From Eubacteriales bacterium (GTDB lineage: Bacteria; Bacillota; Clostridia; Christensenellales; CAG-138), in the NCBI GenBank assembly GCA_021373115.1, contig JAJFTI010000013.1:1-64000 (forward strand): 64,000 bases of DNA, read 5' to 3'. Shown piece after piece: positions 13,561 to 33,018 of this stretch. The notes beneath the pieces are model-generated. The model ran no database searches. It was not told the origin of the DNA and saw only the letters and a list, made by a program, of their open reading frames with translations. Made by a program: the position numbers and the translations under genes. How positions within the stretch are numbered: the first letter of the stretch is position 1; the number at the start of each line of letters is the position of its first letter.

Positions 13561-13944
13561 ATGGATCATGTAACGCGAGAGATGTGTCCAAAGAAAGACA
13601 TGCTTGGCCGCACAACAAATGCTGCTTTTGGCAAAGCCGGTGTCGCAAAAATTGCCACGACCGACTGTTTCGTTGGGTACGTAACATTTGCCCCCATATA
13701 TGGAAAGATGAAGCCGCATTATCATGAAGATGAAATCATGTATGTTGTCGATGCAAAGAATGCATTCGTACGATATGGCGATGCTCCGGATCAGATGACG
13801 AAAAAAGATGCACTCAACAAAGGCGATATCATTCGTGCCAGAAATGGAGAATGGCATATCTTTGAATTCGACAGTGAAGATGGGTTTTTAGAATTGATCC
13901 CGTTCTTTACAGTGCCTCTTGGACATACGGTGGAAGCGGACTGA
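13561..13944 (+). CDS. Cupin-domain protein
   Basis: This 127-residue single-domain cupin has a metal-site segment KPHYHEDEIMYVVDA near residue 51, with His and Glu spaced as in cupin motif 1, and a later NKGDIIRARNGEWHIFEF matching motif 2. It begins the long catabolic cluster, directly after the regulated promoter. The ATG at 13561 has only a weak GAGAGA upstream, and a TTG six bases earlier is an alternative. Cupins in such clusters are often sugar isomerases, epimerases or small-molecule binding proteins; the sequence does not decide. Confidence 0.7.
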   Translation: MDHVTREMCPKKDMLGRTTNAAFGKAGVAKIATTDCFVGYVTFAPIYGKMKPHYHEDEIMYVVDAKNAFVRYGDAPDQMTKKDALNKGDIIRARNGEWHIFEFDSEDGFLELIPFFTVPLGHTVEAD

Positions 13945-13968
13945 CGGCGGCGGAAACAGGCGGAAAAA

Positions 13969-15012
13969 ATGATGAATATCCCAGATAAGATGAAAGCGAT
14001 CTACCTGACCAAGCCGCAAACCTTCGAGATGCGGGAGATCGACACGCCGAAAATCACGGAGGCGCATCAGGTATTAGTGAAGACAAAGGCGGTCGGTGTT
14101 TGCGGTTCGGACCTGCACGCATGGAATGGTGCGCATAAGGACGTCGTCATGCCGGCCATCTTGGGCCATGAGATTGTTGGCGAGGTCGTCGCTTGCGGCG
14201 GCGCCGTGACGAATGTTAAGGTCGGCGATCATGTGGTCCGTGAACCGATTGACTATTGCGGGACCTGCTATGCATGTACGCATGGACGCCCGAATGTGTG
14301 CCCGGATTTGAAGGTCTGGGGATTTGCGCATGACGGCGGCCACCGCCAGTATTTTCTTTCGGAATGTGAGAAACTGTACCGCTTTCCGGAAACGGTGGAC
14401 TGGACGGTTGCTGCAATGTTGGAGCCATACACGATTGCCGCGGAGGTAAACGACCGTGCCAATATTCAGGCTGGCGACACGGTCATGATCTATGGCCTTG
14501 GTCCCGCCGGGATTTCCATTGGCGATTGGGCAAAATATCATGGTGCGACCGTTTTTGCGTCCGACGTGATTCCGAAGCGTTTGGAAATGGCACGTGCGTT
14601 CGGATTTGATCAAGTATTGGATGCGAGCCGGGTGGATGTAAACAAGGAGATCATGCGTTTAACCTTCGGCAAAGGCGTCAATGTACTGATTGATGCCGCC
14701 GGGTTTCCGGGCGCGTTGGACAATGCGCTCAATCTGATCACTCCATTAGGGCGGATTGTACCAGTGGCCATCAACTTCAATTCGGTCAGCTTTCCGATGA
14801 TTTGGTTTGACCTGAAGGAAGCCTCTATCGTAGGATCTCGTCTGGAGGCTGGAAAGTTTCCGGTTGTGATATGCGAATTGAAGAATCACGAGCAGCACAT
14901 CCGCCAGATGGTTACAAACGTCTTTCCATATACTCAGTTAGGTGAAGCATTTGAACTGGCGGCAAGCCGTGATCCGGACGTCTGCAAAATAGTGGTCAAT
15001 TACGACCTGTAA
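13969..15012 (+). CDS. Zinc-dependent alcohol dehydrogenase (MDR family)
   Basis: A 347-residue medium-chain dehydrogenase of the sorbitol/threonine/L-gulonate dehydrogenase type, which oxidises a secondary alcohol of a polyol or sugar acid with NAD(P). Catalytic zinc ligands are visible as Cys45 (GVCGSDLH) and His67-Glu68 (GHEIVGEV). The structural zinc loop has four Cys from residue 97 (CGTCYACTHGRPNVC). The nucleotide-binding turn is YGLGPAGISIGDWA near 179. It is tightly linked to the cupin gene before and the amidohydrolase gene after. It probably catalyses an early oxidation step. Confidence 0.88.
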   Translation: MMNIPDKMKAIYLTKPQTFEMREIDTPKITEAHQVLVKTKAVGVCGSDLHAWNGAHKDVVMPAILGHEIVGEVVACGGAVTNVKVGDHVVREPIDYCGTCYACTHGRPNVCPDLKVWGFAHDGGHRQYFLSECEKLYRFPETVDWTVAAMLEPYTIAAEVNDRANIQAGDTVMIYGLGPAGISIGDWAKYHGATVFASDVIPKRLEMARAFGFDQVLDASRVDVNKEIMRLTFGKGVNVLIDAAGFPGALDNALNLITPLGRIVPVAINFNSVSFPMIWFDLKEASIVGSRLEAGKFPVVICELKNHEQHIRQMVTNVFPYTQLGEAFELAASRDPDVCKIVVNYDL

Positions 15013-15027
15013 AAAGGGGCAATCATC

Positions 15028-15939
15028 ATGAAATGTATCGATGCGCATGTCCACATTTACGAGCATTTCCACGGCTACGGGTTTATGGGGGAGTTCCGCA
15101 TATTTCCGGATGGCACGATGCGGATGGCAGGCGGCGAGAGCGGGAGGGTCATCCCGGAAGGGTTCGGGACGACCGGCGTTTCCGCGGAGCGGGCGCTTGC
15201 GTTTATGGACGAAATGGAAATTGAACGCGCCGTTCTTTTACAGGGAAGCGCGTACGGCTTTCAAAACGAGTACATTTCAGAAAGCGTTCAGCGGTATCCG
15301 GACCGGTTTACCGGCGCCGCCACAATCGATCCTTGCATCCGTTTATTCGATCGCGTATTCGACCGGCTGACGAAGGAACTGAACTTCAATATCTTCAAGA
15401 TGGAGATCAGCGAGTTCGGCGGATTCATGGGGTACCATAATCCGAATACCTTTCTGGACGAGCCGAATCTTCAAAAAATCTGTGCACACCTGAACAGGAC
15501 GAACGGCACGCTCGCTCTGGACATTGGCCAGCCCGGGACCGTAAGCCACCGGGTTGAAAAATACCTTGCGTGGGTGGAGCGGTATCCGGATATGAAATTT
15601 GTCTTCTGTCACCTCCTTTCGATGACACCCAAGAATGTGGAAACGCTGCGGCGCGAGATGGAACTGCTGAATCAGCCAAACGTATGGTATGACCTTGCGT
15701 CCATCGCGTGCAATACGTCCGAGCACGCGCCGTATCGCTGGGCACGCGAATATTTGAAGATTGCCGGCGACATCGCGGGCGCGGAACGGCTGCTCTGGGG
15801 CAGCGACATGCCGACCACGTTGTCCGACTATCCCTATTTGGAAGCGCAGGAAATCATCACGAAGGCAGGCATTTTCAGCGATTCGGAACTGAAACGGATT
15901 TTCCGGGAGAACGCGAAAGACGCATATTCCATTAAATAG
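15028..15939 (+). CDS. Amidohydrolase-family metal-dependent hydrolase
   Basis: A 303-residue TIM-barrel protein of the Amidohydro_2 group. The HxH metal motif is at the start (CIDAHVHIYEH), a barrel His occurs in KFVFCHLLSM, and the late Asp ligand is in LLWGSDMPTTLSDY near residue 263. Members include lactone hydrolases, for example 2-pyrone-4,6-dicarboxylate and sugar-lactone hydrolases, and decarboxylases. Placed after a polyol dehydrogenase, lactone hydrolysis is a reasonable guess. It is cotranscribed with the dehydrogenase gene, 15 bases upstream. Confidence 0.82.
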   Translation: MKCIDAHVHIYEHFHGYGFMGEFRIFPDGTMRMAGGESGRVIPEGFGTTGVSAERALAFMDEMEIERAVLLQGSAYGFQNEYISESVQRYPDRFTGAATIDPCIRLFDRVFDRLTKELNFNIFKMEISEFGGFMGYHNPNTFLDEPNLQKICAHLNRTNGTLALDIGQPGTVSHRVEKYLAWVERYPDMKFVFCHLLSMTPKNVETLRREMELLNQPNVWYDLASIACNTSEHAPYRWAREYLKIAGDIAGAERLLWGSDMPTTLSDYPYLEAQEIITKAGIFSDSELKRIFRENAKDAYSIK

Positions 15940-16023
15940 AGTACATTGCTGCTCGAAAATGCGTAAAAGCGAAAAAGAAACGGGATTTTCCTGCAGAAGG
16001 GTACGATAGAGAGGTTTGCATAC

Positions 16024-16899
16024 ATGTTGGATTCCAAGCAAGAAACGGAATTTGAAATTCTGGCAGCCGAGATCCGGCTGGAGACGTTCAGGGAACTGGC
16101 GGAATTGGGCTTTGGCCATATCGGTGGTGCGATGAGCATTGCGGACGTGCTGGCGGTTCTCTACGGCGGAGTGATGAAGATCGACCCGGAGAACCCCGCC
16201 TGGGAAGACCGGGATTACTTTGCTCTGTCCAAAGGGCATGCCGGCCCGGCCGTCTACGCGGCGCTCGCGCTGAGAGGATTTTTCCTAAAGGAACAGCTTA
16301 AAACGTTGAACAAGAGCGGGACGATGCTGCCGAGCCATTGCTCTCGTATCCATACGCCGGGAATCGACCTGACGACGGGGTCTCTGGGCCAGGGGATCAG
16401 CACGGCTGCGGGAGCCGCACTTGCTTCGCGAATTCTGGGCGGGGACAATTACGCCTACTGCATTATTGGCGACGGCGAATGCGACGAAGGACAAATCTGG
16501 GAAGCGGCCCTCTTTGCGGCGCACCAGAAACTGGACCATTTCATTCTTTTTGTGGACGCTAACAAGCTGCAGCTGGACGGTCCCGTTGCGGAAATCTGCT
16601 GCATGGGCGATATTGGCGAAAAGTTCCGCTCGTTCAACTGGCATGTTCAAACGGTGGACGGTCATTCCGTCGCCGCGATATACCGGGCGATTGAAGCGGC
16701 GAAAGCCGCGGTCGGCCAGCCGTCCGTTGTCGTATTGGAGACGATCAAGGGAAAAGGGTGCGCTCTGGCGGAAGAAGCGGCTGCCAAGGGGCAGGGCATT
16801 CATCATATGCTGTTTCCGGATCAGGAAACGAACCGCAGGGAAATCGCGCGCATGGAACAGGTGGTTTCAGATCTGAAAGCAAAGAGAGGTTCACGATAA
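16024..16899 (+). CDS. Transketolase, N-terminal half (second pair)
   Basis: A 291-residue thiamine-diphosphate-binding half-transketolase. Landmarks are GFGHIGGAMSIADVL near residue 30, LSKGHAGPAVYAAL near 69, and GDGECDEGQIWEA near 150 ending at the Asn of VDANKLQLDG. GAGAGG lies eight bases before the ATG. Its stop codon overlaps the start of the partner gene (TAATG), indicating translational coupling and equal subunit amounts. It differs clearly from the halves at 6567-7397 and 18659-19513, so it is not a recent duplicate. Confidence 0.9.
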   Translation: MLDSKQETEFEILAAEIRLETFRELAELGFGHIGGAMSIADVLAVLYGGVMKIDPENPAWEDRDYFALSKGHAGPAVYAALALRGFFLKEQLKTLNKSGTMLPSHCSRIHTPGIDLTTGSLGQGISTAAGAALASRILGGDNYAYCIIGDGECDEGQIWEAALFAAHQKLDHFILFVDANKLQLDGPVAEICCMGDIGEKFRSFNWHVQTVDGHSVAAIYRAIEAAKAAVGQPSVVVLETIKGKGCALAEEAAAKGQGIHHMLFPDQETNRREIARMEQVVSDLKAKRGSR

Positions 16900-17885
16900 T
16901 GGTAGTGCGTGCTGCGGAGAATAGTACCGTTGAGATGCGTGGCGTATACGCAAAGACGCTGATAGACATGGCCCGGAGCGACTCGCGCGTCGTAGCGCTC
17001 GACTGCGACCTGGCCGCGCCGATCGGCATTATTGGGATGGCGAAGGAATTTCCGAAACGCTTGATCGACTGCGGAATCATGGAAGCGAACATGGCAGGCG
17101 TGGCGGCCGGTATGTCGGCGCGCGGATGCATTCCGTTTACGCATACCTTCGCATGCTTTCAATCGAGGAAGTGCCTGGATCAGATCTTCCTGTCCGCCGG
17201 TTTTGCGGATTTAAATGTGAAGTTCGTTGGCTCGGATCCGGGTATTCTGGCGCTCTACAACGGAGCGTCCCACATGGGTCTGGAGGATATGGGCGTTCTG
17301 CGGAACGTGCCGAATCTGACACTGCTGGAACCGTCCGACTCTGTTATGCTGGAGAATCTGCTCCGCCAGGTGAAGGATACTTACGGCCTGTTCTATATTC
17401 GCATGAACCGTAAAAATGCTACGACAATCTACGAACCAGCTACGGATTTTACGATCGGAAAGGGACTGGAGCTGCGCAAGGGCAGGGACGTGACGATCTT
17501 TGCCAGCGGAATTATGGTGGAACAGGCGCTTCGGGCGGCCGAATTGCTCGCCGCACAAAAGATCGACGCGCAGGTGATCGACCTGTTTACCTGGCATCCG
17601 ATCGACCGTGACCTGATCGTTCGCTCGGCAAAAGAGACGGGAGCGGTTGTAACGGCTGAAAACCATAGAGTCGCCTCCGGACTTGGCGCCGCTGTTGCGA
17701 GCGTATTGCTTGAGAACTGTCCAGTTCCGATGGAACGAGTTGGCATTGGGGACGTTTATGGCGAAGTCGGCGAATTGCCATATCTCATGGAGCAGTTCCA
17801 TCTGCGCGCGGAGGACATCGCGCTCAAGGCAGAAAAGGCCGTTGCAAGAAAACGAGAACAGTTTACGTTCTTCAGCAAGTTTTAG
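16899..17885 (+). CDS. Transketolase, C-terminal half (second pair)
   Basis: This 328-residue partner subunit starts at the ATG overlapping the previous stop; longer upstream frames would overlap the N-terminal half and are rejected. The cofactor-activating Glu is kept, but in the altered context CGIMEANMAGVAAGMSARG rather than the common GIAEQNM. The substrate-side segment ASHMGLEDMGVLRNVPN replaces the usual THQxxED pattern while keeping its His. These changes suggest a different donor or acceptor from those of the other two pairs. Cysteines around the entry loop (FACFQSRKCLDQ) are unusual. Confidence 0.88.
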   Translation: MVVRAAENSTVEMRGVYAKTLIDMARSDSRVVALDCDLAAPIGIIGMAKEFPKRLIDCGIMEANMAGVAAGMSARGCIPFTHTFACFQSRKCLDQIFLSAGFADLNVKFVGSDPGILALYNGASHMGLEDMGVLRNVPNLTLLEPSDSVMLENLLRQVKDTYGLFYIRMNRKNATTIYEPATDFTIGKGLELRKGRDVTIFASGIMVEQALRAAELLAAQKIDAQVIDLFTWHPIDRDLIVRSAKETGAVVTAENHRVASGLGAAVASVLLENCPVPMERVGIGDVYGEVGELPYLMEQFHLRAEDIALKAEKAVARKREQFTFFSKF

Positions 17886-17992
17886 CCGATTCCACGGCAA
17901 TATGCCGGCGGAAATGCGATCAAGAATTGAAACGTTTTCGGCCGTCCGCGGCAGCGGAAAGGCCGGCAGACATCCCTTCGGAGGTGAATCCA

Positions 17993-18649
17993 TTGAAAAT
18001 CGTGAACGTTTTTACCGGAATGGGCGGATTGGTCGATCATATCGGCAACCAGTTTCGCAATACGCTCGATAAAGTGGAGATTTCGAATATAGCGGACGAC
18101 GGAATACTCGGCGCGATTATTCGGGATGAAACCGTAACGGAAACAACAGCAAAACGGGCGGAGTGCCTGTTTCGCGCAGCACAGCTGGCAAAACCGGATT
18201 TAATCGTGTGCACTTGTTCCAGCATTGGAGACGTTGCGGACGCCTGTGCCGCAACCAGTGAAATTCCAATTCTGCGAATCGACTATCCGCTGGTTAGTAA
18301 AGCGCTGGAAACCAGCGACCGGATCGCGGTCCTCGCAACCCTGCGTTCAACGCTTCTTCCCACCACAAGCTTGTTGGAACGCGTCGCGCGGGAGAACGGC
18401 AGGAAGATTCAAGTGGAGTCAATCTTAATAAACGGCGCGATGGATGCAATGCGTGCCGGGAAAATGGATCAGGCGGTCGCGCTCGTTCTTGACGTGGCTT
18501 TGGACGCGCAGAAACGAAACGGCGTGCTCATGATGGCGCAGGCTTCCTTTGACCTGATGCGTGGGAGCATTCAGCCAAAACTGAGTGTGCCTATGCTGGT
18601 CAGCCCGCCGCTGTGCGCCGAATATATCCGCGAACACATTTCGAAATGA
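17993..18649 (+). CDS. Asp/Glu racemase superfamily protein
   Basis: A 218-residue member of the aspartate/glutamate/hydantoin racemase fold. The first catalytic Cys position is filled (LIVCTCSSIGDVADA near residue 66), but the segment where the second Cys normally lies reads MMAQASFDLMRG, with no Cys. Two Cys are needed for ordinary racemisation; family members with one, such as arylmalonate decarboxylase, do other chemistry. TTG 17993 was chosen as the start because GGAGGTG is eight bases upstream; an ATG at 17927 lacks a site. It lies between two split transketolases and probably acts on a pathway intermediate, as an isomerase, decarboxylase or lyase. Confidence 0.75.
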   Translation: MKIVNVFTGMGGLVDHIGNQFRNTLDKVEISNIADDGILGAIIRDETVTETTAKRAECLFRAAQLAKPDLIVCTCSSIGDVADACAATSEIPILRIDYPLVSKALETSDRIAVLATLRSTLLPTTSLLERVARENGRKIQVESILINGAMDAMRAGKMDQAVALVLDVALDAQKRNGVLMMAQASFDLMRGSIQPKLSVPMLVSPPLCAEYIREHISK

Positions 18650-18658
18650 GGCTTGAAG

Positions 18659-19513
18659 ATGGAGAATGAACTGAAACGGCTTAAAAAAATCGCTATTCAA
18701 ATCCGGCGTGACATCATAGAGACTGCTTCATTCGGCAAAGGCGGCGCCATCCACGTTGGGCCGGCGCTTTCCAGCGCCGATATCGTAACTGCCCTCTATT
18801 TCAAGATTATGCATGTCGATCCGTCGAATCCCAACTGGGAAGACCGGGATCGGTTCATTCTATCGAAAGGACACGCCTATGCGGTCCTCTACTCCGCTTT
18901 GGCGGAAAAAGGGTTTTTCCCGCGCGAAGAACTCATGACGGCCCGCGCGCTGAACAGCCGCCTGCAAGGGCATCCGGTGCTCGGTAAAACCCCGGGGGTC
19001 GATATGGTGAGCGGCTCGCTGGGAAACGGGCTCTCCTGCGGCGTCGGCATCGCAACCGCACTAAAGATGCAGTGCAGGCATGCCCGGGTGTACGTGATGC
19101 TGGGCGACGGCGAAATTCAGGAAGGTATGGTTTGGGAAGCCGCCATGTACGCGGGCAATCACGGGCTGGACAACCTGACCGCCATCGTGGACTACAACCA
19201 TTTTCAAAGCTGCGGGGCTGAAAACGAGATAATGCCTCTTTATCCGCTTGCGGACAAGTGGCGCGCGTTCGGCTGGCAGGTTATGGAGATGAACGGCCAC
19301 GATATGGCCGACATCGTAAGGGGGCTGAGCATGGCGAAAGAATTTGCGGGCAGGCCGGTATGCGTTATTGCGCATACGGTCAAAGGCAAAGGGATCAGCT
19401 TTATTGAACATAACAACAAATGGCATGTCGGCAGGTGCACCATGGATCAGCATACGCAGGCAATGAAAGAGCTGGACGAGCAGGAAACGGCTGTGGAAGC
19501 CGGCCTGATGTAA
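18659..19513 (+). CDS. Transketolase, N-terminal half (third pair)
   Basis: A 284-residue thiamine-diphosphate-binding half, with GGAIHVGPALSSADIVTALY near residue 25, LSKGHAYAVLYSAL near 69, and GDGEIQEGMVWEAA near 150 ending in VDYNHFQSCG. The ATG at 18659 has TGAGG nine bases upstream; a TTG at 18653 is too close to that site. It begins nine bases after the racemase-like gene and 13 bases before its C-terminal partner. Confidence 0.9.
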   Translation: MENELKRLKKIAIQIRRDIIETASFGKGGAIHVGPALSSADIVTALYFKIMHVDPSNPNWEDRDRFILSKGHAYAVLYSALAEKGFFPREELMTARALNSRLQGHPVLGKTPGVDMVSGSLGNGLSCGVGIATALKMQCRHARVYVMLGDGEIQEGMVWEAAMYAGNHGLDNLTAIVDYNHFQSCGAENEIMPLYPLADKWRAFGWQVMEMNGHDMADIVRGLSMAKEFAGRPVCVIAHTVKGKGISFIEHNNKWHVGRCTMDQHTQAMKELDEQETAVEAGLM

Positions 19514-19526
19514 GGAGGCGGCGGAT

Positions 19527-20480
19527 ATGCGCAGTTTTGAAATGGAGCAGAAAACAACGCGGGATGCGTTTGGCGCCGCCGTATACGACCTGGCAAAGGA
19601 AGACCCATCGATCATCGCCCTGGGCGCGGACACCACCAATAATCTTGGAATGGGACCCATGAGCCAGGAAATACCGAAGCGGGTCATCAACGTCGGCATC
19701 GCCGAACAGAACATGATGGGAATTGCCGCCGGGCTGGCGGCGAGCGGATACCGCGTATTTGCCGGTTCGTTCGCGCCGTTCGTGGCGATGCGTTCTCTGG
19801 AACAATTCCGCACCTTTATCTGTTATCCGCATTTGAATGTGAAGGTGGCGGGCGGAATGGGCGGGTTGTCGGCTTCCAACGAAGGGGTCACACACCAGTG
19901 TCCCGAGGACTTTACCATCATGCGTTCGATTCCGGGCAACGTGGTGGTCTATCCCGCCGATACGGCATCCTGCAAGGTAATTGTCAGGGAACTCAACAAA
20001 CACGACGGCCCGGCGTATATCCGGCTGGGAAAACTTCCATTCCGAAAAGTCTTCGACGAGAACTATCATTTTGAACTTGGGAAAGCGAACCTTCTGGAAG
20101 AAGGTACGGACGCAACCATTTTCTGCAACGGTACGACGGTCAGCCGCTCGCTTCAGGCATTCGACGTGCTGCGCGAAGAGGGAATTTCCGTTCGCGTTAT
20201 GGAAATGCCATGCATAAAACCGCTGGACGAGGAGGCGGTTCTGAATGCCGCAGAGGAAACCGGCGCGATCGTAACCGTTGAGGAAGCAACAATTCTTGGC
20301 GCGCTTGGCGGAGCGGTTGCAGAGGTATTGGGCGAGAACCATCCGACCATTATGAAGCGCGTCGGACTGAACGACTGCTTCGGTGAATCTGGAGAATTGG
20401 AAGAACTGATGGACAAATACGGAATCTCTGTTGAAAGTATTGTAAGCGCGGTGAAAAGCGTAATCGCCCGAAAACGGTAA
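19527..20480 (+). CDS. Transketolase, C-terminal half (third pair)
   Basis: A 317-residue subunit with the standard activating segment INVGIAEQNMMGIAAGLA near residue 53 and the substrate-side EGVTHQCPEDFTIMRSIPG near 117. AAGGAGGCGG precedes the ATG. It is closer in motif wording to the pair at 5540-7397 than to the pair at 16024-17885. Two complete split transketolases in one transcript suggest two successive thiamine-dependent steps or two substrates. Confidence 0.9.
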   Translation: MRSFEMEQKTTRDAFGAAVYDLAKEDPSIIALGADTTNNLGMGPMSQEIPKRVINVGIAEQNMMGIAAGLAASGYRVFAGSFAPFVAMRSLEQFRTFICYPHLNVKVAGGMGGLSASNEGVTHQCPEDFTIMRSIPGNVVVYPADTASCKVIVRELNKHDGPAYIRLGKLPFRKVFDENYHFELGKANLLEEGTDATIFCNGTTVSRSLQAFDVLREEGISVRVMEMPCIKPLDEEAVLNAAEETGAIVTVEEATILGALGGAVAEVLGENHPTIMKRVGLNDCFGESGELEELMDKYGISVESIVSAVKSVIARKR

Positions 20481-20530
20481 CAGGTTTCGACCCGCTTAAC
20501 AATAAACAAGTAAAAGGAAGGGGTACTCAA

Positions 20531-25158: not shown

Positions 25159-25216
25159 TATTCATAATCGCATTATTGAGAAGCATGTTCCCGCGAGAGG
25201 GCATAAGGAGGGCGTC

Positions 25217-26087: not shown

Positions 26088-26204
26088 ATGAACGCCATGA
26101 AAACGCGGGATTTACTGGAGTACGCAAAATTCGTCGCTCAGCCATCCGGCGATGACTCGTTTCAGCCGGACGGACAAGCGGGACGGAGAGGAGGGAACCG
26201 ATGA
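26088..26204 (+). CDS. Possible 38-residue protein
   Basis: A short open frame opens at ATG 26088, or internally at 26097 giving MKTRDLLEYAKFVAQPSGDD, and its TGA overlaps the ATG of the P-loop gene in another frame. That overlap is typical of translational coupling. There is no clear ribosome-binding site and I recognise no family. It is either a small partner protein or a leader peptide, or it may not be a gene. Confidence 0.3.
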   Translation: MNAMKTRDLLEYAKFVAQPSGDDSFQPDGQAGRRGGNR

Positions 26205-26884
26205 TCCGGGAATTTCAAGCGATGCTCGGAGACGCGAAGAACTTTGTTCTGCTTGGCGAATCGGGGTGCGGGAAGAGCGAGATAGCACTGAACCTTGCGT
26301 TTTTCCTTTCCCAAAGCGGCGAGACGCACGTATTTGACCTGGATCAGACGAAACCGCTGTTCCGCTCCCGTGATGTTGCGGCGGAGGCGGCGAGGCGGGG
26401 GGTAAGCGTCCATTTCAGCGAGCAGTACTATGACGCACCGACGCTTGCGGGCGGCGTTCCGGAGCGGCTGGCGAACGCTTCGGAGTACACCGTTCTGGAC
26501 GTAGGGGGCAACGATACCGGCGCGCGGATGATCGGACGGTTCGCCGCGACGTTGAATCAGCCGCTTGCAAAAGTCTTTTACGTGGTCAACACCTACCGGC
26601 CATGGTCGAAAAATTACGTTACGATCGACGGGATCATGACTTCTATCTTAAAAGTATCCCGTCTGCGGGGAATCCACATCCTCACCAATCCGAATATCGG
26701 GGCGGAGACCACGGAGGCGGATTTTCGGGCTGGGCTGGACCGAACGCACGAATTGCTGGACCCGTTCATGGCGGTGGAAGGTGTTTGCGTTCAGGAAACG
26801 CTGTTTGAGGCGGCAAAAAGGTACACGCGGCTGCCGGTATTTCCACTCCGGCTGTTTTTAAACTACGACTGGTCGGAGCGATAG
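26201..26884 (+). CDS. P-loop NTPase of the MinD/CobQ-like type
   Basis: This 227-residue protein has a Walker A GESGCGKSE near residue 20, then a DLDQTKPLFRSRD segment where the partner loop of SIMIBI GTPases/ATPases usually lies, and an acidic VLDVGGNDTGARM that could be a Walker B. It is soluble, with AGAGGAGGG before the ATG. It is placed between the SDR gene and the ferredoxin-type subunit of a 2-oxoacid oxidoreductase, which is unusual for those operons. Possible roles are iron-sulfur cluster or cofactor insertion, or an ATP-dependent activator. I cannot name it. Confidence 0.65.
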   Translation: MIREFQAMLGDAKNFVLLGESGCGKSEIALNLAFFLSQSGETHVFDLDQTKPLFRSRDVAAEAARRGVSVHFSEQYYDAPTLAGGVPERLANASEYTVLDVGGNDTGARMIGRFAATLNQPLAKVFYVVNTYRPWSKNYVTIDGIMTSILKVSRLRGIHILTNPNIGAETTEADFRAGLDRTHELLDPFMAVEGVCVQETLFEAAKRYTRLPVFPLRLFLNYDWSER

Positions 26885-26913
26885 AACAAGGAACACGCAA
26901 GGAGGCAAACTAT

Positions 26914-27117
26914 ATGGCGTATGTGACAATCTTGACGGAGAGCTGCAAGAGCTGCGGCTATTGCGTTAAATTCTGTGCAAAGCATGTACTCGCCGTGGGA
27001 AAACAAGTGAACAAACAGGGGTATCCCTATATCGTAGCGGAGAATCCTGCTGCCTGCATCGGCTGCGCGATGTGCGCGCAGATGTGCCCGGAAGCGGCGA
27101 TTGAAGTGTACAGGTGA
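26914..27117 (+). CDS. 2-oxoacid:ferredoxin oxidoreductase, ferredoxin-like delta subunit
   Basis: A 67-residue protein with two complete [4Fe-4S] motifs, CKSCGYCVKFC near residue 11 and CIGCAMCAQMC near 49, matching the delta subunit of VorABCD/KorABCD enzymes. It passes electrons from the thiamine-dependent core to free ferredoxin. AAGGAGG precedes the ATG, and the alpha, beta and gamma genes follow directly. Confidence 0.92.
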   Translation: MAYVTILTESCKSCGYCVKFCAKHVLAVGKQVNKQGYPYIVAENPAACIGCAMCAQMCPEAAIEVYR

Positions 27118-27130
27118 GGAGAGAAAACGT

Positions 27131-28207
27131 ATGAGCAGAGTATTTATGAAGGGCAACGAAGCGATTGCCGAAGCTGCTGTTCGGTCCGGCTGCCGGTTCT
27201 TCGCCGGGTATCCGATTACACCGCAAAACGAGATTCCAGAATATCTTTCCCGTCGTCTGCCGGATGTTGGCGGCGTGTTTGTACAGGGAGAAAGCGAAAT
27301 TGCGTCCATCAATATGGTGTACGGCGCCGGCCAGACGGGGACCCGCTCCATGACTTCGTCTTCCAGCTGCGGCATCAGCCTAAAGAGCGAGGGCGTCTCA
27401 TTCTGCGCCGCGGCGCGCGTTCCCATCGTTTACTGTAATATGGCGCGCGGCGGCCCTGGAATCGGCACGATACAGCCCGCGCAGCAGGATTATATGCAGG
27501 CGACGAAGGCCAGCGGAAACGGCGGATTCCGCATGTTGGTTTTCGCGCCATCCACGGTGCAGGAAGCGGCGGACATGACCTATGCGGCGTTCGATTATGC
27601 GCAGCGCGACCGAAACCCCGTGCTCATACTTGGAGACGGCGTGCTGGGAACCATTATGGAACCCGTCGAACTGCCGCGCATGCGCAGCGAAGAGGAAGTG
27701 GCACAGCTGAAGCGGGAGCTGTCCGATTGGACGCTCATTGGGCACGATCCGGACAAGGGCCGCGCGTTCATTAAGCCGGGCGTTTGGTCGACGAAGGGGC
27801 AGGAGCAGATGTGTAAGGACAATGCCGCTTTGTATGATTCCTGGGAGAAGGACGTTCAGGTGGAGACAATCGGGCTGGAAGACGCGCAGCTCGTGATTAC
27901 GGGATACGGGATCTCCGGCCGGATCGCCGCCTCTGCGGTGGGTAAGCTGCGGACGGAAGGTTTGAAAGTCGGATTCATTCGGCCTAAGACCGTTTCGCCG
28001 TTTCCGTACGGCGCTTACGAAGTGCTCGATTTCCACCGCGTGAAATGCATATTGGATGTTGAAATGGCGATTCCCGCGCTGATGATTTACGACGTCAGGC
28101 TGGCGGTGAAGGATCGCTGCCCAATTGAAACCTGCCTGCATGCCGGCGGGGAAATCATGAGCCGCGAAGAGATCATTGAAAAAGCGCGCGCCCTCTTGGC
28201 GAAGTGA
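27131..28207 (+). CDS. 2-oxoacid:ferredoxin oxidoreductase, alpha subunit
   Basis: A 358-residue VorB/KorA-type subunit beginning RVFMKGNEAIAEAAVRSGCR, then FFAGYPITPQNEIPEYL, the usual substrate-channel segment. TRSMTSSSSCGISLKSEG and ARGGPGIGTIQPAQQDY follow, as in KorA proteins. The start ATG at 27131 has GAGGAGAG upstream. With the beta, gamma and delta subunits it decarboxylates a 2-oxoacid to an acyl-CoA while reducing ferredoxin. The Ptb and Buk genes downstream suggest a propionyl-, butyryl- or branched-acyl-CoA product. Confidence 0.92.
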   Translation: MSRVFMKGNEAIAEAAVRSGCRFFAGYPITPQNEIPEYLSRRLPDVGGVFVQGESEIASINMVYGAGQTGTRSMTSSSSCGISLKSEGVSFCAAARVPIVYCNMARGGPGIGTIQPAQQDYMQATKASGNGGFRMLVFAPSTVQEAADMTYAAFDYAQRDRNPVLILGDGVLGTIMEPVELPRMRSEEEVAQLKRELSDWTLIGHDPDKGRAFIKPGVWSTKGQEQMCKDNAALYDSWEKDVQVETIGLEDAQLVITGYGISGRIAASAVGKLRTEGLKVGFIRPKTVSPFPYGAYEVLDFHRVKCILDVEMAIPALMIYDVRLAVKDRCPIETCLHAGGEIMSREEIIEKARALLAK

Positions 28208-28219
28208 GAGGAGAAAGTC

Positions 28220-28972
<753 letters not shown>

Positions 28973-28973
28973 C

Positions 28974-29534
28974 ATGGAAAAGAACCTGATGGTCGCCGGA
29001 TTCGGCGGACAGGGCGTTATGATGATGGGGAAACTGCTCTCCTACGCGACCTGCGAATCCACGGATTTAAACGTTACGTTTTTCCCGTCGTACGGCGCCG
29101 AACAGCGCGGCGGGACCGCGAACTGCTACGTGGTCATCTCCGACGAGCCAATCGGCGCGCCTTTGGGCGACGCGATGGACGATCTCGTCGTCATGAACGG
29201 TCCCTCCCTGAACAAGTTCTTATATAAACTCAAGCCGAACGGTACGCTTTTTATCAACAGCTCCATCGTGAAAGATGAAATTATCCGCTCGGACGTTCGT
29301 GTTGTCGCGGTGCCGGTGACGGAGATTGCACTTGAAATGGGGAATGCGAAAGTGCTGAACATCATCATGCTTGGCGCGTATATCGGCTATACGGGCGCGC
29401 TGGCTGAGGATCTGATGATGAAGACCATCCTCCATAAGCTGAAGAAAAAGCAAGAGCTGATCGCGTTGAATACGGATGCGTTTGCACGTGGTCTGGCCAT
29501 CGGCAAGGCAGTGCGGAGCGAAGCGAACGCATAA
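28974..29534 (+). CDS. 2-oxoacid:ferredoxin oxidoreductase, gamma subunit
   Basis: A 186-residue gamma subunit. The N-terminal MVAGFGGQGVMMMGKLLSYA and SYGAEQRGGTANCYVVIS are diagnostic of this family; they form the CoA-binding domain. It completes the four-gene set in the order delta, alpha, beta, gamma. About 130 noncoding bases separate it from ptb. Confidence 0.92.
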   Translation: MEKNLMVAGFGGQGVMMMGKLLSYATCESTDLNVTFFPSYGAEQRGGTANCYVVISDEPIGAPLGDAMDDLVVMNGPSLNKFLYKLKPNGTLFINSSIVKDEIIRSDVRVVAVPVTEIALEMGNAKVLNIIMLGAYIGYTGALAEDLMMKTILHKLKKKQELIALNTDAFARGLAIGKAVRSEANA

Positions 29535-29665
29535 ACGAAGAGCGTTTGCGATTTTTCGTTTTTGCGGCCGTGCAGCGAGTTCTTCGCTGTTTCCGAACGC
29601 ACACTTGAAGCCGAACCAGCGTCACTGAGCCGGTTGAAAGCGAAATCGGCAGAGAGGCTACCGAT

Positions 29666-30559
29666 ATGTTGCGAAATTTCGATGAACTGATTGAGCGGGT
29701 AAAAGACGTAAAGAAAAAAACCGTAGCCCTGATCGCCGCGGATGATGTACACGCGCTGCAGGCAATCTTGGAAGCGAAAGACATTGTGGACTGCATCCTG
29801 GTCGGGGATAGGGGGCGCATTTGCGAGGCGCTTCGTTCGCTGGGGCAGATTCCTGCGAACTATGAAATCGTGGAGAATGAACGGGAGGAGCATCCTTCTG
29901 TTTGCGCGGCACGGTTGATTCAGAGCGGGCGCGTGGATTTCCTGATGAAGGGGAAAATCATGACGTCGGACATGCTCAAAGGCGTTTTGAAACCGGAATC
30001 GGGCCTCCGCACCGGCAGGCTGATGTCGCATATTGCGCTGAATCAGATTCGCGGCTTTCACAAACTGCTGGGAATGACCGACGGCGGAATGTGCCCGCAT
30101 CCCGACCTGGAGCAGAAAAAGCAGATTTTAGCCAACGCTCTGGAGCTTTTCCACATCCTCGGATACGAAACGCCAAAGGTTGGGGTCCTCTGCGCGGCGG
30201 AAGCCGTCAGCCCCGGAATGCCGGAAACGGAGGATGCCGCCGAGCTGAAACGCCTGAACGACGCGGGTGAAATCAGCGGGTGCATTGTGGAGGGCCCGAT
30301 TTCCTACGATATCGCCATGTACCCGGAGATTGCGAAATACAAAGGTTATACGGGCGTATGCTCCGGCGAATTCGATATCCTGCTCGTCCCAAACGTCGTG
30401 ACGGGAAACGCGCTGGGGAAGTGCCTTGTTTACACCGTCGGCGGGGAGATGGCGGGCATTGTAATGGGCGCGAAGGTGCCGATTGTGCTGACCTCCCGCG
30501 CGTCGTCCGCCAGCGAAAAGTACAATTCGCTTGCGCTCGCCGCCGGCATTTGCAGATAG
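29666..30559 (+). CDS. ptb: Phosphate butyryltransferase-type acyltransferase
   Basis: A 297-residue enzyme of the Ptb/Pta family that converts an acyl-CoA and phosphate into an acyl phosphate. LMKGKIMTSDMLKGVLKPES near residue 95 and MTDGGMCPHPDLEQK near 134 are typical, as is GEFDILLVPNVVTGNALGK near 239. It forms the classic pair with the butyrate kinase gene nine bases downstream. Placed after the 2-oxoacid oxidoreductase, it conserves the thioester energy. Confidence 0.9.
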   Translation: MLRNFDELIERVKDVKKKTVALIAADDVHALQAILEAKDIVDCILVGDRGRICEALRSLGQIPANYEIVENEREEHPSVCAARLIQSGRVDFLMKGKIMTSDMLKGVLKPESGLRTGRLMSHIALNQIRGFHKLLGMTDGGMCPHPDLEQKKQILANALELFHILGYETPKVGVLCAAEAVSPGMPETEDAAELKRLNDAGEISGCIVEGPISYDIAMYPEIAKYKGYTGVCSGEFDILLVPNVVTGNALGKCLVYTVGGEMAGIVMGAKVPIVLTSRASSASEKYNSLALAAGICR

Positions 30560-30568
30560 GAGGCTGTT

Positions 30569-31657
30569 ATGGAGCGGATTCTTGTCATCAACCCCGGGTC
30601 CACCTCCACGAAAATCGCGCTGTTTGAAGGGGACAAAAAAGTCCTCGGCAGTTCGCTTAGGCATATGGACGAAGAAATAGCGCAGTTCGCGGGATGCCTG
30701 GAACAGGAAGAATTCCGGGAGCAAAAAGTGCTCGAATGGATGAACGACAACCGAATCGAAGCGAGCTCGCTGGACTGCATCATGGCGCGGGGGGGCGCTC
30801 TGCCGCAGGTGCCCTCCGGAGCGATTCTCGTGACGGAACGGATGATCGACTATATGTATCACAAAGCGTCCCGGGCGAACTTCCATCCCTCCAATCTCGC
30901 CTGCATCATCGCCTACCGTCTTGCGCAGCAGGCCCATATACCGGTCTATGTGTACGACGCCGTAAGCACGGACGAACTAACCGATATTGCCCGGGTTACG
31001 GGCGTACCGCAGATTCCGAGGATCAACCTGGGGCATACGCTGAACACGCGTTCCGTCGCCATACGCTGCGCAAAAGAGGTGCTGCACAGGCCGTTTGAAC
31101 AGTGCACGTTCATCGTTGCGCATCTTGGGGGAGGCTACAGCGCAAGGCTGCTGCAGAACGGCAGGAATGTCGATTCGGTCCGTGACGACGAAGGCGCGTT
31201 TTGCCCGGAGCGGTCCGGAAACATTGCCGCGCTGGACTTGATTAAATACATCTATGAAAACGGAATTTCCTATCCGGATGCCGTGAAGCTCCAGCGCGGC
31301 AGCGCAGGCTGGAAAGCGCTTCTCGGCACGAGCGACGCGCGGGAGCTCCTCGACCGCGAAAAAGCGGGGGATGCGAAAGCGGCTCTTGTGCTGGACGCGT
31401 TCTGCTATAACGTTGGAAAGGACATTGGAAAACTTGCGTGTGCGGTGAAGGGGAAAGTGGACCGCATCCTTTTAACCGGGGGCATTGCGTTTTCCGAGCG
31501 CATTACCGCGGCGATCACGGAATATGTGGATTGGATCGCGCCGGTCATTGTGAGCGCAGGCGAATTCGAAATGGAAGCGCTTGCCGAAGGCGGCTTGCGT
31601 ATTTTGCGCGGCGAAGAGACTTGGCGCGAAATGGGCGAGGATTACCGCTGCCAATAG
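30569..31657 (+). CDS. buk: Butyrate kinase
   Basis: A full-length (362 residues) acetate-kinase-superfamily enzyme with the N-terminal signature VINPGSTSTKIALFEG, the second motif VAHLGGGYSARL near residue 185, and LLTGGIAFSERI near 297. It turns an acyl phosphate plus ADP into a free carboxylic acid plus ATP. AGGAGG precedes the ATG. The substrate may be butyryl or branched-chain acyl phosphate; the gene context does not decide. Confidence 0.93.
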   Translation: MERILVINPGSTSTKIALFEGDKKVLGSSLRHMDEEIAQFAGCLEQEEFREQKVLEWMNDNRIEASSLDCIMARGGALPQVPSGAILVTERMIDYMYHKASRANFHPSNLACIIAYRLAQQAHIPVYVYDAVSTDELTDIARVTGVPQIPRINLGHTLNTRSVAIRCAKEVLHRPFEQCTFIVAHLGGGYSARLLQNGRNVDSVRDDEGAFCPERSGNIAALDLIKYIYENGISYPDAVKLQRGSAGWKALLGTSDARELLDREKAGDAKAALVLDAFCYNVGKDIGKLACAVKGKVDRILLTGGIAFSERITAAITEYVDWIAPVIVSAGEFEMEALAEGGLRILRGEETWREMGEDYRCQ

Positions 31658-31794
31658 GGACGGTTCTGAACAGATGTTCCTTAAGAAGAATTGAAAGAAG
31701 ACGGGCGAATAGCGATGCGGGTTTCTCAGAGCGGTGCGTTCGCTGGAGCTGACCGTTCGGCACACGAAAGAAAAATTGAGAAAAGGCGGGCGGC

Positions 31795-33018
31795 ATGACG
31801 GAGCAATCTATGAAACGCAAAAGAATCCTCACGCTGATCAGCGCTGTTTGCGTGCAGCTCTGCGTTGGCATCATCTATATCTGGAGTATTTTTCGCGTTC
31901 CGGTGATGGAGTATTTTGGCTGGGACAGTACGCAGGCTTCCTTGACTTTCTCCATCATGCTTCCGCTGAATATGCTTGGTGTTTTGGTCGGCGGTATCCT
32001 TTGCGACCGCAGGGGGATTCGTCCCGTGGTGTTGACCGGCGCAGCTTTTGCGGTTTCCGGGTTGTATTTGACCTCGCTTGTATCGAGTGCAAACGCCGCG
32101 CTTCTTTATGTTTTTTACGCGGGTTTGTGCGGATTTGGCGGCGGATTGGTCTATGCGTCCGCGATTGCAAGCGTCAATCAATGGTGGACGCGGCATAAAG
32201 GCTTCGCCGTCGGGTTAACGATTGGCGCGTATGGGTGCTCGACGGTGGTGTTTGGCGCGTGGGTGAACCGGATGCTGTCGTCCCATCTGGGCGTACAAGG
32301 CACATTTCGAACGCTCTCGCTCATATTTCTGTTGGTGTTCGCAGCGTCGGTGTGGATGCTTCGCAACGCTCCCGACGGTGTCGGTTTGGCACGCAGTGAA
32401 GCGCCGGACCAGGCGGTCGTCGGTCAAAAACAATATACGCCCCAAAAGGTACTTGCAACGCCGGTCTATTACCTTCTTGTGATCTGCTTGGTTTGCCTGA
32501 CGGCACCGTATTTGATGCTGAATACGACGATGAAATCTTTTGCCGTCGCGCGCGGGCTGACAGCGGAAATGGCCGTCGTAACGGTTATGACGACGGGGAT
32601 TGCGTCCGCGGCAGGCCGGATTATCAGTGCGTGGATGACGGACAAGACGTCCGTTCAAACCGTGCTGATCATGCTGTTTTGCCTGGCGCTGACCGCAACG
32701 GGGGTGCTCTTTTATGCTAGCGGGATTTGGTTTATCGCGGCGATTGCATTGGTTGCGTTCGCATACGGCGGGTGCGCGGCGATTACGCCGCTCCTTGCGA
32801 TTTCGTTTTTCGGCACAAAATACATGAGTTCGATTATGGGACTGCTAATTATCTCGGCAATTATAGCCGGCATGGCTCATCCGGCAATCGCCGCAAAAAT
32901 CAGTGTGGACGGGCTGCCGTCTGCTACAACTTTTATTGTGATGGAAAGTATTGTATTGGGGGGGCTTATTCTATTTCAAATTCTGATTTTAACGCAAAAC
33001 AGGACTCGAAATCGATGA
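31795..33018 (+). CDS. MFS transporter, oxalate/formate antiporter (OFA) family
   Basis: A 407-residue membrane protein with about twelve hydrophobic helices. The opening LISAVCVQLCVGIIYIWSIF near residue 13 and the segment DRRGIRPVVLTGAAFAVSG near 72 are characteristic of the OFA family, whose members exchange monocarboxylates or dicarboxylates. At the end of the acid-producing cluster it probably exports the acid formed by Buk, or exchanges it for an acidic substrate. A start at 31810 is an alternative. No clear terminator follows; the frame runs into IS debris. Confidence 0.82.
   Translation: MTEQSMKRKRILTLISAVCVQLCVGIIYIWSIFRVPVMEYFGWDSTQASLTFSIMLPLNMLGVLVGGILCDRRGIRPVVLTGAAFAVSGLYLTSLVSSANAALLYVFYAGLCGFGGGLVYASAIASVNQWWTRHKGFAVGLTIGAYGCSTVVFGAWVNRMLSSHLGVQGTFRTLSLIFLLVFAASVWMLRNAPDGVGLARSEAPDQAVVGQKQYTPQKVLATPVYYLLVICLVCLTAPYLMLNTTMKSFAVARGLTAEMAVVTVMTTGIASAAGRIISAWMTDKTSVQTVLIMLFCLALTATGVLFYASGIWFIAAIALVAFAYGGCAAITPLLAISFFGTKYMSSIMGLLIISAIIAGMAHPAIAAKISVDGLPSATTFIVMESIVLGGLILFQILILTQNRTRNR

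Follow-up and report, generated by a model that had tools for sequence, protein, structure and literature searches.

The window, i.e., the whole 64,000-nt stretch of DNA that we analysed, carries at 13561-33018 a run of genes that we read, at somewhat worse than even odds, as a single dedicated catabolic gene cluster, with 20 genes constant in three genomes and a predicted kinase-free fermentation of a likely branched sugar. Open reading frame calls combined with a Pfam/NCBIfam scan gave 21 co-directional genes on the + strand, in the order cupin, Zn-alcohol dehydrogenase (ADH), amidohydrolase, first transketolase pair (TK1), racemase-like protein, second transketolase pair (TK2), sugar ABC transporter, SDR dehydrogenase, P-loop NTPase, VorDBAC, Ptb, Buk, and MFS transporter (Table 1). 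The first-pass annotation had recognised their shared direction but counted ~19 genes; the first of the 21 is the cupin gene (13561-13944). Its gene calls were upheld by the profiles (two Transketolase_N plus Transket_pyr/C pairs, Amidohydro_2, Zn-ADH, Asp_Glu_race, ABC, SDR, Vor, Ptb, Buk, and MFS). Domain profiles detected no sugar kinase domain among the scanned cluster proteins.

Table 1 Features of the cluster and its upstream region (identities are with the two related clusters)
Feature	Position	Strand	Remarks
GntR/FadR-type regulator	12445..13206	+	TTG start; NanR/LldR/UxuR-like NCBIfam matches, all listed ones below cut-off
Promoter-like site TTGACT-17-TACCAT	13312..13340	+	Overlaps palindrome
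Orphan cupin	13561..13944	+	127 aa; in both related clusters
Zn-dependent alcohol dehydrogenase	13969..15012	+	RspB/LgoD (sugar-acid dehydrogenase)-like; 61-63%
Amidohydro_2 protein	15028..15939	+	Predicted lactonase; 48-51%
TK1 N subunit, split transketolase	16024..16899	+	Pfam; 67-70%
TK1 C subunit	16899..17885	+	GIMEANM; ATG overlaps TK1 N stop (TAATG)
Asp/Glu-racemase-like protein	17927..18649	+	Asp_Glu_race; TCSS at first cysteine site, AQAS in place of the second cysteine
TK2 N subunit	18653..19513	+	Start TTG 18653 or ATG 18659; 71-72%
TK2 C subunit	19527..20480	+	Usual GIAEQNM
CUT2-type sugar-binding protein	20531..21547	+	Without ribose-binding Arg90 and Arg141 of RbsB
ABC permease 1 (BPD_transp_2)	21631..22644	+	ATG at 21631; open frame 21331-22644
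ABC ATPase	22641..24155	+	Two ABC_tran domains; Pfam
ABC permease 2 (BPD_transp_2)	24145..25158	+	Pfam
SDR dehydrogenase	25217..26029	+	Glucose 1-dehydrogenase-like; 46-55%
CobQ/ParA-type (CbiA-like) P-loop NTPase	26201..26884	+	Vor-associated; Pfam
VorD, 4Fe-4S dicluster subunit	26914..27117	+	Domain scan
VorB	27131..28207	+	408.7 bits (cut-off 399); cluster-specific clade 100/100
VorA, ThDP-binding subunit (PorB-like)	28220..28972	+	77-78%
VorC, POR-gamma subunit	28974..29534	+	Pfam/NCBIfam
Ptb-like phosphotransacylase	29666..30559	+	298.7 bits, below cut-off 399; 44-46%
Buk-like acyl kinase	30569..31657	+	361.6 bits (cut-off 289.1); 38-39%
MFS transporter, L-lactate/oxalate-formate type	31795..33018	+	239 bits to L-lactate MFS model (cut-off 320); no match in related stretches

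In the pathway that we propose, the ABC transporter would import a sugar that would be converted to a sugar acid by the two dehydrogenases (ADH and SDR) and by the amidohydrolase acting as a lactonase. Conversion of this acid to a 3-oxo-isoapionate-type branched 3-keto acid, HOCH2-CO-C(OH)(R)-COOH, would fall to the cupin, the one-cysteine racemase-like protein, or both; from this keto acid, TK2 would transfer the HOCH2-CO unit to glyceraldehyde-3-phosphate to yield xylulose-5-phosphate. Since the carbon left behind would be a tertiary carbinol bearing the carboxylate, the leftover would directly be a 2-oxoacid, R-CO-COOH. VorDBAC would oxidise it to R-CO-CoA, producing reduced ferredoxin, and Ptb and Buk would convert the latter to the acid R-COOH with formation of ATP, the acid being exported by a carrier. 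TK1, which has an altered active site and belongs to the ordinary split-transketolase lineage, might carry out a second two-carbon transfer or recycle xylulose-5-phosphate to an acceptor, a role for which this scheme does not account well. Cleavage of a 3-oxo-isoapionate-type acid by a transketolase is our own prediction. In its boldest form, to which we assign a probability of roughly one in three, TK2 would use an unphosphorylated branched sugar keto acid directly as its substrate, with release of a 2-oxoacid, so that sugar cleavage would be coupled to ferredoxin-dependent oxidation and ATP formation by Ptb/Buk. If true, this would represent a new principle of sugar fermentation, one transketolase replacing a kinase and a RuBisCO-like decarboxylase. 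The likeliest R would be, by a weak preference, CH2OH (an apiose-type substrate, with hydroxypyruvate as 2-oxoacid and glycolate as product).

The cupin-to-Buk set recurs on two Lachnospiraceae contigs, with 20/20 genes in FE2018 (G378:C14) and 20/20 in ABMPRH_276 (G377:C29), which exceeds chance. These two other genomes thus combine the racemase-like gene and Vor/Ptb/Buk with both pairs of transketolase genes, so that the co-occurrence check proposed in the first-pass annotation was positive and its condition for refutation, homologous neighbourhoods in which the genes are never found together, did not arise. The pathway interpretation of that annotation stood in this co-occurrence, but not in its placement of the GIMEANM motif. 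As the related clusters were located via the racemase-like gene, the presence of that gene in them is not independent. The cluster is rare in Lachnospiraceae, a TK1 ortholog being found in 2/397 genomes searched. The trees unite TK1, TK2, and VorB, each with its FE2018 and ABMPRH_276 counterparts, in clades of 100/100 support, separate from the other VorBs and split transketolases of the window genome placed in the trees.

These comparisons make it highly improbable that the region consists of two unrelated neighbours, with an operon for sugar use at 13561-26029 and a Vor/Ptb/Buk operon of the ordinary type, for amino-acid oxidation, at 26201-33018. Although a 171-bp gap upstream of the NTPase gene would suit such a division, the two halves are together in 3/3 clusters, in three different gene orders, and in FE2018 the Vor block is placed inside the sugar genes, with TK2 on one side and the cupin/ADH/TK1 block on the other. 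Moreover, the VorB of the cluster, in its own clade, shares only 43-44% with the other VorBs of the window genome. Genome neighbourhoods and the available part of PMC13290082 do indicate that NTPase-VorDBAC is a module of general occurrence among anaerobes, to which Ptb/Buk are sometimes added, OFOR loci with Ptb/Buk being tied elsewhere to amino-acid oxidation in that source. The presence of the module is thus ordinary in itself, and the special feature is the dedicated copy. All four VorDBAC subunits are present in the cluster, and the six other matches of the NTPase in 13 genomes searched are all near a vorB match. Since Ptb scores below its family cut-off, its acyl group need not be butyryl.

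A single GntR-controlled promoter for the whole cluster is plausible from the upstream sequence. After gntR comes a terminator-like hairpin (13223-13248), and the promoter-like site farther downstream overlaps the palindrome TAGTATACTA (13318-13327), a candidate operator. The weight of both elements is limited by the scans that yielded them, with 25 terminator matches against 24.1 expected and 26 promoter matches against 14.0 expected. The perfect palindrome occurs once in the window and in one further place in the genome (2 places in total); genome-wide, it is no commoner than its reversed control. Gaps of 171, 131, and 137 bp upstream of the NTPase, ptb, and mfs genes, respectively, make internal promoters possible. 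In the related clusters, stretches of 60 kb and 39 kb yielded no match to gntR or mfs; both clusters adjoin a sigma-54-type activator.

The motif GIMEANM, attributed earlier to the second transketolase, sits in the first pair (16899-17885), the second (19527-20480) having GIAEQNM; both TK1 relatives read GIMEGNM. The catalytic Glu (TktA E411) is retained in TK1 and TK2, and the TktA residues H26, H66, H100, D155, N185, H261, E411, and H473, which we take to be the ThDP/substrate catalytic residues, are present in both enzymes of all three clusters; R358 is also kept in TK1 and TK2. At TktA positions 461 and 469, TK1 and TK2 differ from TktA and from one another. TK2 has a Glu at position 469, a residue of no obvious benefit for binding an acid, which counts against the main reading. 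In the trees, the TK1 clade (100/100) is nested within the ordinary Clostridia split-transketolase branch, and TK2 is joined (supports 100/98 and 99/98) by transketolases from other operons that include a racemase-like gene, namely those of G1434 and of L070/L071. The G1434 operon encodes a racemase-like protein, a distant cupin, a TRAP-like carrier, a TIM barrel, and a transketolase. Neither TK1 nor TK2 falls in the AptAB clade (AptAB with L034, L049, L063, L065, and L087, 100/99). Most transketolases encoded close to a racemase-like gene, the Lachnospiraceae pair excluded, do belong to that clade (5/7 placed), which counts against the main reading.

The active-site differences between the two transketolases would also suit a sequential shortening of an unbranched keto-aldonate, similar to the sulfo-transketolase pathway with one enzyme per step. 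The sugar would be converted to an aldonate and oxidised at its penultimate carbon, TK1 would remove C2, the cupin would isomerise the shorter aldehyde acid, TK2 would remove C2, and a C3 acid (tartronate semialdehyde/hydroxypyruvate) would enter Vor/Ptb/Buk. The cupin is reasonable as an isomerase, the ADH is nearest to the RspB/LgoD group of sugar-acid dehydrogenases, and the sulfo-transketolase pathway, in the part of PMC11659671 available, runs two rounds with an isomerase between them. However, two full rounds ending at C3 would require a C7 substrate, TK1 comes from an ordinary lineage, and that of TK2 goes with racemase-like operons whose kin carry OiaK/OiaX-like branched-acid enzymes, so that we regard this route as possible but doubtful.

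The structure model of the racemase-like protein (pLDDT 94.4; Foldseek matches to Asp/Glu racemases, best E 4e-8) indicates the Asp/Glu racemase superfamily fold. A cofactor-independent two-cysteine racemase was rejected because in 22/22 aligned rows only the first site is Cys, the second being Gln (AQAS); two partial matches (P0016, P0021) were omitted from the alignment. Its TTG/GTG start candidates are 17927, 17993, and 18002, the true start being perhaps one of the latter two. This gene is the least conserved cluster member (34-37% in the related clusters), it groups with its FE2018 and ABMPRH_276 counterparts at a tree support of only 91/84, and in ABMPRH_276 it lies beyond a regulator, next to KdgT and AEC carriers.

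Within 5.5 kb of 80 racemase-like loci, we found a DUF1537 kinase in 64/80, a RuBisCO-like protein in 55/80, and an SBF carrier in 61/80. In many Bacteroidota, a kinase and a RuBisCO-like protein accompany the racemase-like protein, those classified being most similar to 3-oxo-isoapionate enzymes. The two Bacteroidota loci L070 and L071, on which the case for replacement by a transketolase rests, have a TK2-type pair in place of these two genes; their genomes contain a RuBisCO-like gene in 0/2, against 8/8 in a comparison set chosen for having one, and each keeps a lower-scoring DUF1537 gene elsewhere. Away from the cluster, a RuBisCO-like gene is present in both G1434 and G377, and a DUF1537 gene in both G378 and G1434, that of G1434 being high-scoring (188 bits).

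This genomic company, together with the lactonase-like protein and the dehydrogenases, would fit a variant of the oxidative D-apiose pathway (apiose to apionolactone, apionate, and 3-oxo-isoapionate) with a transketolase replacing the kinase/decarboxylase end; this variant corresponds to the main reading with R = CH2OH and is weighed here on its own. In L102, the racemase-like gene and a transketolase are followed by a tartronate-semialdehyde reductase (461.9 bits, cut-off 397), fitting a C3 leftover of the hydroxypyruvate type, and that transketolase branches outside the TK2 clade. We nevertheless consider the D-apiose variant rather unlikely. For both RuBisCO-like proteins that were classified, the best-scoring family is OiaX (492 and 505 bits), and for the single classified kinase it is OiaK (405 bits); all three scores are below the cut-offs of 700, which indicates a related but different acid. 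In addition, the window genome (G000, 89% complete) has 0 RuBisCO_large and 0 SBD_N (DUF1537) matches, TK1 and TK2 are not AptAB, and the binding protein shares only 26% with its counterpart in E. coli apiose clusters and is devoid of the two RbsB arginines. Against the main reading itself, a CUT2-type importer points to a neutral ligand, as opposed to the SBF-type (acid) carrier of most racemase-like loci. The MFS protein is a candidate acid exporter.

The cupin, a candidate isomerase, scores 17.3 bits to Cupin_2 (cut-off 27.2); its PHYHE..E and GEWH metal-ligand-like motifs are invariant in the alignment, and its structure model, of medium confidence (pLDDT 71.7), matches cupins. Only 14 relatives were found in 5.8e9 proteins, two of them on contigs of 25686 and 53415, the same sizes as the contigs of two close racemase-like relatives. 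Distant relatives of the amidohydrolase adjoin CUT2 transporters in L109 and L112. Every NCBIfam score of the ADH is below cut-off, and its second-best match is IolM, which would fit an inositol-type route where the ADH makes a diketo ring that the amidohydrolase opens to a keto-aldonate for the transketolases. CUT2 importers can indeed carry inositol. However, the IolM score (204.5 bits) is far under the cut-off of 450, none of the matches listed for the remaining scanned cluster proteins names an inositol-pathway enzyme family, and the product after two rounds would be glyoxylate, on which Vor does not act; we find this route hardly probable at all.

Our literature search, covering top-ranked matches and few subscription papers, retrieved no described pathway combining two transketolase pairs with racemase-like and Vor/Ptb/Buk genes, in line with the first-pass suggestion of an undescribed pathway. 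The D-apionate pathways with OiaK/OiaX, reportedly from Carter et al. 2018, employ a kinase and a RuBisCO-like decarboxylase, whereas the cluster has a transketolase; the branched 3-keto acid intermediate is likely of the same kind as the one proposed here, and in Bacteroidota the racemase-like gene has relatives of OiaK/OiaX in its operon. That D-apionate work is cited in the accessible part of PMC6302742. The D-apulose-4-phosphate transketolase pathway (E. coli SE15 cluster), as far as the available part of PMC13001218 describes it, resembles our cluster in its CUT2 transporter, split transketolase, and SDR-type dehydrogenases, but phosphorylation precedes cleavage (AptAB plus an FGGY kinase), and no FGGY (apulose kinase) domain was detected among the scanned cluster proteins. 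AptB is without TktA R358 and R520, both of which TK1 keeps and where TK2 has R and K, respectively, and the annotation of the SE15 cluster, in contrast to the cluster of the window, includes neither a lactonase-like or cupin gene nor a Vor gene.

The sulfo-transketolase pathway (SqvD, SqwGH, SqwI), according to the portion of PMC11659671 at hand, shares a split transketolase, anaerobic Clostridia, an exported end product, and the kinase-free C2 transfer to glyceraldehyde-3-phosphate, giving xylulose-5-phosphate, that we predict for the cluster. In that portion, one transketolase is used twice, instead of two pairs; the cluster has additional lactonase-like, cupin, and racemase-like genes, and Vor/Ptb/Buk instead of SqwF or SqwD/SqwKL. 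Finally, amino-acid oxidation by OFOR plus Ptb/Buk, in the part of PMC13290082 available, uses the same energy module that we predict for the cluster (2-oxoacid to acyl-CoA, acyl-phosphate, and ATP), from which the cluster differs by having a dedicated copy within a sugar cluster, with its own VorB clade.

The cluster comprises 21 genes in a single direction: cupin, Zn-alcohol dehydrogenase (ADH), amidohydrolase (a predicted lactonase), TK1 N and TK1 C (the first split transketolase pair), a one-cysteine Asp/Glu-racemase-like protein, TK2 N and TK2 C (the second pair), sugar-binding protein, permease, ABC ATPase, permease, SDR, a CobQ/ParA-like P-loop NTPase, VorD, VorB, VorA and VorC (a 2-oxoacid:ferredoxin oxidoreductase, OFOR), Ptb and Buk (phosphotransacylase and acyl kinase), and MFS. 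Most intergenic gaps are shorter than 90 bp, three gene pairs overlap, and three gaps, upstream of the NTPase, ptb and mfs genes, exceed 130 bp. A gntR gene followed by a terminator-like hairpin precedes the run, and the space separating gntR from the cupin gene holds a promoter-like site that a perfect palindrome overlaps. This palindrome has a single copy in the window and one other elsewhere in the genome; a reversed control pattern is equally frequent in the genome, so that this count alone is uninformative. The FadR-type operator TNGTNNNACNA was absent from the gaps examined in the window.

Coordinates of the features discussed
Feature	Sequence	Coordinates	Strand	Remarks
Fic-domain protein and phage portal protein	window	464-2993		portal PF04860, 330 bits; prophage remains or edge
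SCP2-like protein	window	4732-5676		weak; near third pair
Third split transketolase pair	window	5540-7397	-	groups with E. coli AptAB and the pair of racemase-like locus L087 (98/98); with wider AptAB group 93/96 in second tree
SCP2-like protein	window	7777-8535		near third pair
Class-III aminotransferase	window	8557-9795		near third pair
Alanine dehydrogenase	window	9831-10949		by eye; near third pair
MTTB (trimethylamine methyltransferase) match	window	11451-12290	+	short, profile positions 84-271 of 500; looks truncated
21-gene cluster	window	13561-33018	+
TK1	window	16024-17885	+
TK2	window	18653-20480	+
P-loop NTPase	window	26201-26884	+
Second sugar locus	window	36340-45770		L-fucose-isomerase-like (weak, under cut-off), PfkB kinase, probable ROK regulator and ABC genes (by eye), CUT2-type binding protein, ureidoglycolate-lyase-like protein
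L102, racemase-like locus	G029, window's family	7753-12119
L103, racemase-like locus	G028, window's family	48-14150		racemase-like beside glycyl-radical-enzyme-like gene and activase (by eye), CUT2-like transporter, DUF1537 kinase

The first-pass annotation had suggested checking whether both transketolase pairs, the racemase-like gene and Vor/Ptb/Buk are conserved together, and in two other genomes they are. An alignment of the racemase-like protein scanned over a genome collection (84,980 species) gave at least 593 stretches, at least 543 of them confirmed, from which the best 80 were taken. Of the two top-ranking loci among those listed, one belongs to Lachnospiraceae bacterium FE2018 and the other to ABMPRH_276, a metagenome bin, and tblastn with the window proteins recovered every gene from cupin to Buk in each (20/20 and 20/20); because the racemase-like gene was the bait, the independent co-occurring genes number 19 rather than 20. 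Protein identities to the window range from 34–37% (racemase-like) to 77–78% (VorA). The order is TK2, buk, ptb, NTPase, VorDBAC, cupin, adh, amidohydrolase, TK1, transporter, sdr, racemase-like in FE2018, and racemase-like (past a regulator), sdr, cupin, adh, amidohydrolase, TK1, TK2, TRAP-like carrier (by eye), transporter, buk, ptb, NTPase, VorDBAC in ABMPRH_276. Within these 60 kb and 39 kb stretches, gntR and mfs had no tblastn match; a sigma-54-type activator adjoins both clusters, its PrpR_N match exceeding the cut-off in FE2018 but falling short of it in ABMPRH_276. Three orders of one gene set suggest selection for togetherness rather than a single inherited DNA stretch, and the 20 genes very probably serve one pathway.

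VorB of the three clusters forms a clade (100/100) separate from two further VorBs of the window genome (43–44%). The 13 genomes searched hold six further NTPase matches, the window genome contributing one, and each of the six has a VorB match nearby. NTPase-VorDBAC is a general module, the NTPase being a constant VorDBAC neighbour in the Clostridia genomes searched, and Ptb/Buk are also present at two of five further such loci examined. We know of no function for this Vor-associated NTPase. OFOR loci with Ptb/Buk in gut acetogens are tied to amino-acid oxidation (PMC13290082). Set beside the 20 genes shared by the three clusters, two unrelated halves, one of them such a module, are a highly improbable reading.

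TK1 of the three clusters forms a clade (100/100) inside ordinary Clostridia split transketolases, and TK2 forms another (100/100) on a different branch. Aligned with E. coli TktA, both keep R358 and the residues for binding of ThDP and of the two-carbon unit; they vary at TktA positions 469 (D in TktA, N in TK1, E in TK2, L in AptB), 461 (H, D, M and N in the same order) and 520 (R, R, K and G). From these kept and varied residues, TK1 and TK2 are probably both active, probably retain the use of a phosphorylated acceptor, and probably differ in what they accept. The altered segment GIMEANM, previously attributed to the second transketolase, is placed by the residue alignment in the first pair, TK1. 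With two such pairs, an unbranched keto acid might instead be shortened sequentially, a reading that we regard as doubtful.

The racemase-like protein has an Asp/Glu racemase fold in a predicted model (pLDDT 94.4); PDB sequences gave a single chance match (E 0.43). In an alignment that excludes two partial matches, 22/22 rows carry the first cysteine only, with AQAS at the second site, and the missing second cysteine makes a two-base racemase mechanism unlikely. Within 5.5 kb at the best 80 loci, there is a DUF1537 kinase gene at at least 64, an SBF-type carrier at at least 61, a RuBisCO-like gene at at least 55 and a GH127 enzyme at at least 24; these are lower bounds, since the racemase-like gene itself was picked up by the greedy ORF calling at 67/80 loci and many loci are short, and Pfam identities were confirmed on one example per type. 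Two RuBisCO-like proteins and one kinase that we classified scored best to OiaX and OiaK, the decarboxylase and kinase of the D-apionate pathway, yet under cut-off, so that their substrate should resemble 3-oxo-isoapionate and differ from it. Enzymes of the OiaK/OiaX type act on HOCH2-CO-C(OH)(R)-COOH; part of this chemistry appears in PMC6302742.

Among these loci (L024–L101, Bacteroidota and Verrucomicrobiota), a widespread operon joins OiaX-like, OiaK-like and racemase-like genes with an SBF-type carrier, often also GH127 and, at some loci, acetylesterase or (by eye) rhamnosidase-like genes. It may serve the breakdown of aceric acid or of some other branched acid from pectin. GH127 prompted the choice of aceric acid, a branched C6 acid found in the pectin rhamnogalacturonan II, as a candidate, but this family also includes arabinofuranosidases.

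A split-transketolase match above 100 bits occurs at ten of the best 80 loci: the two Lachnospiraceae, five of AptAB type, L042 (partial, outside the tree), and the Bacteroidota loci L070 and L071. The L070/L071 pair falls on the TK2 branch (99/98 with TK2, 100/100 with that of genome G1434), the racemase-like proteins of both loci are placed among the RuBisCO-like-type ones (88/91), and RuBisCO-like and kinase genes are absent within 5.5 kb. Genome-wide, neither genome has a RuBisCO-like gene (0/2; the 8/8 positive genomes were preselected for that gene and serve as positive control only), and both have a DUF1537 gene elsewhere, at 111–119 bits versus 174–199 for the operon type. The window genome and G029 have neither gene genome-wide; away from the cluster, FE2018 has the DUF1537 gene only, ABMPRH_276 the RuBisCO-like gene only and G1434 both. 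One run in G1434 comprises racemase-like (28%), a distant cupin (34%), a TRAP-like carrier (by eye), a TIM barrel and the TK2-type pair.

In the pathway that we propose, a neutral sugar would enter via the CUT2 importer and be oxidised by the ADH, SDR and lactonase-like protein. A transketolase would then cut, in HOCH2-CO-C(OH)(R)-COOH, the bond that links the keto carbon to the carbon bearing the carboxyl group. Such a cut would form a 2-oxoacid directly, which is what Vor needs, and would account for Vor/Ptb/Buk inside a sugar cluster. We give this reading, a branched 3-keto acid cut by transketolase with the 2-oxoacid passed to Vor/Ptb/Buk, a probability of about 40%. Regarding the sugar itself, the binding protein (window 20531-21547), aligned against RbsB, AlsB and the apiose protein of E. 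coli, lacks the ribose-binding Arg90 and Arg141, which disfavours a ribose-like pocket and names no ligand. Two of the seven amidohydrolase loci viewed (of nine from the order) adjoin CUT2 transporters (L109, L112), and the neighbours at the other five point to no substrate. The cupin model resembled general cupins only in the PDB (2oa2, Psf4, HppE, KdgF; best E 3e-4, TM about 0.5), and its sequence gave a single chance match there (E 1.7).

The cluster is rare, judging from its few relatives. The racemase-like protein occurs in 3/103 genomes of the window's family (the window genome itself and two at 28–29%) and in none of seven other genomes of its genus. The TK1 C subunit has matches at E 1e-80 or better in 26/391 genomes of the class (best besides self, 57%) and at 1e-100 in 7/397 of FE2018's family, with FE2018 and ABMPRH_276 at 63–68% and the remaining five at 50–52%. 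The cluster is absent from 15 class loci of TK1 C homologs (46–57%; one is the window genome's own paralog), which show only scattered 23–40% matches to its common types (ADH, SDR, ABC, GntR); TK1 by itself is thus no marker. A word-based search of 5.8 billion proteins found 14 cupin relatives (58–94% identical), a profile search of 398 genomes of the phylum found the window cupin and the distant G1434 relative, and plasmids gave no match.

If true, the pathway would give anaerobes another way to use branched sugars of plants or pectin: two-carbon transfer would bring carbon into the pentose phosphate pool, the residual acid would yield ATP and reduced ferredoxin, and the sugar kinase step would be bypassed, with zero ATP spent there. 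It would also assign functions to the orphan cupin family and to the one-cysteine racemase-like family, found at dozens of Bacteroidota/Verrucomicrobiota loci adjoining OiaK/OiaX-like enzymes. In the literature searched, which included few subscription papers, no described pathway unites OFOR-Ptb-Buk, two split transketolases, an orphan cupin of this kind and the one-cysteine protein, and for apiose and isoapionate no transketolase route that starts from an apionate is described. Catabolism by transketolase is already known, and so is OFOR-Ptb-Buk. TK1 and TK2 fall outside the group (100/99) that E. coli AptAB forms with the transketolases of L034, L049, L063, L065 and L087, and we consider it unlikely that the cluster is as such a special case of apiose catabolism. 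L102, a row of TIM barrel, racemase-like, split transketolase (outside the TK2 clade) and tartronate-semialdehyde reductase (above cut-off), is a one-transketolase relative of the pathway, whereas the window cluster has two pairs.
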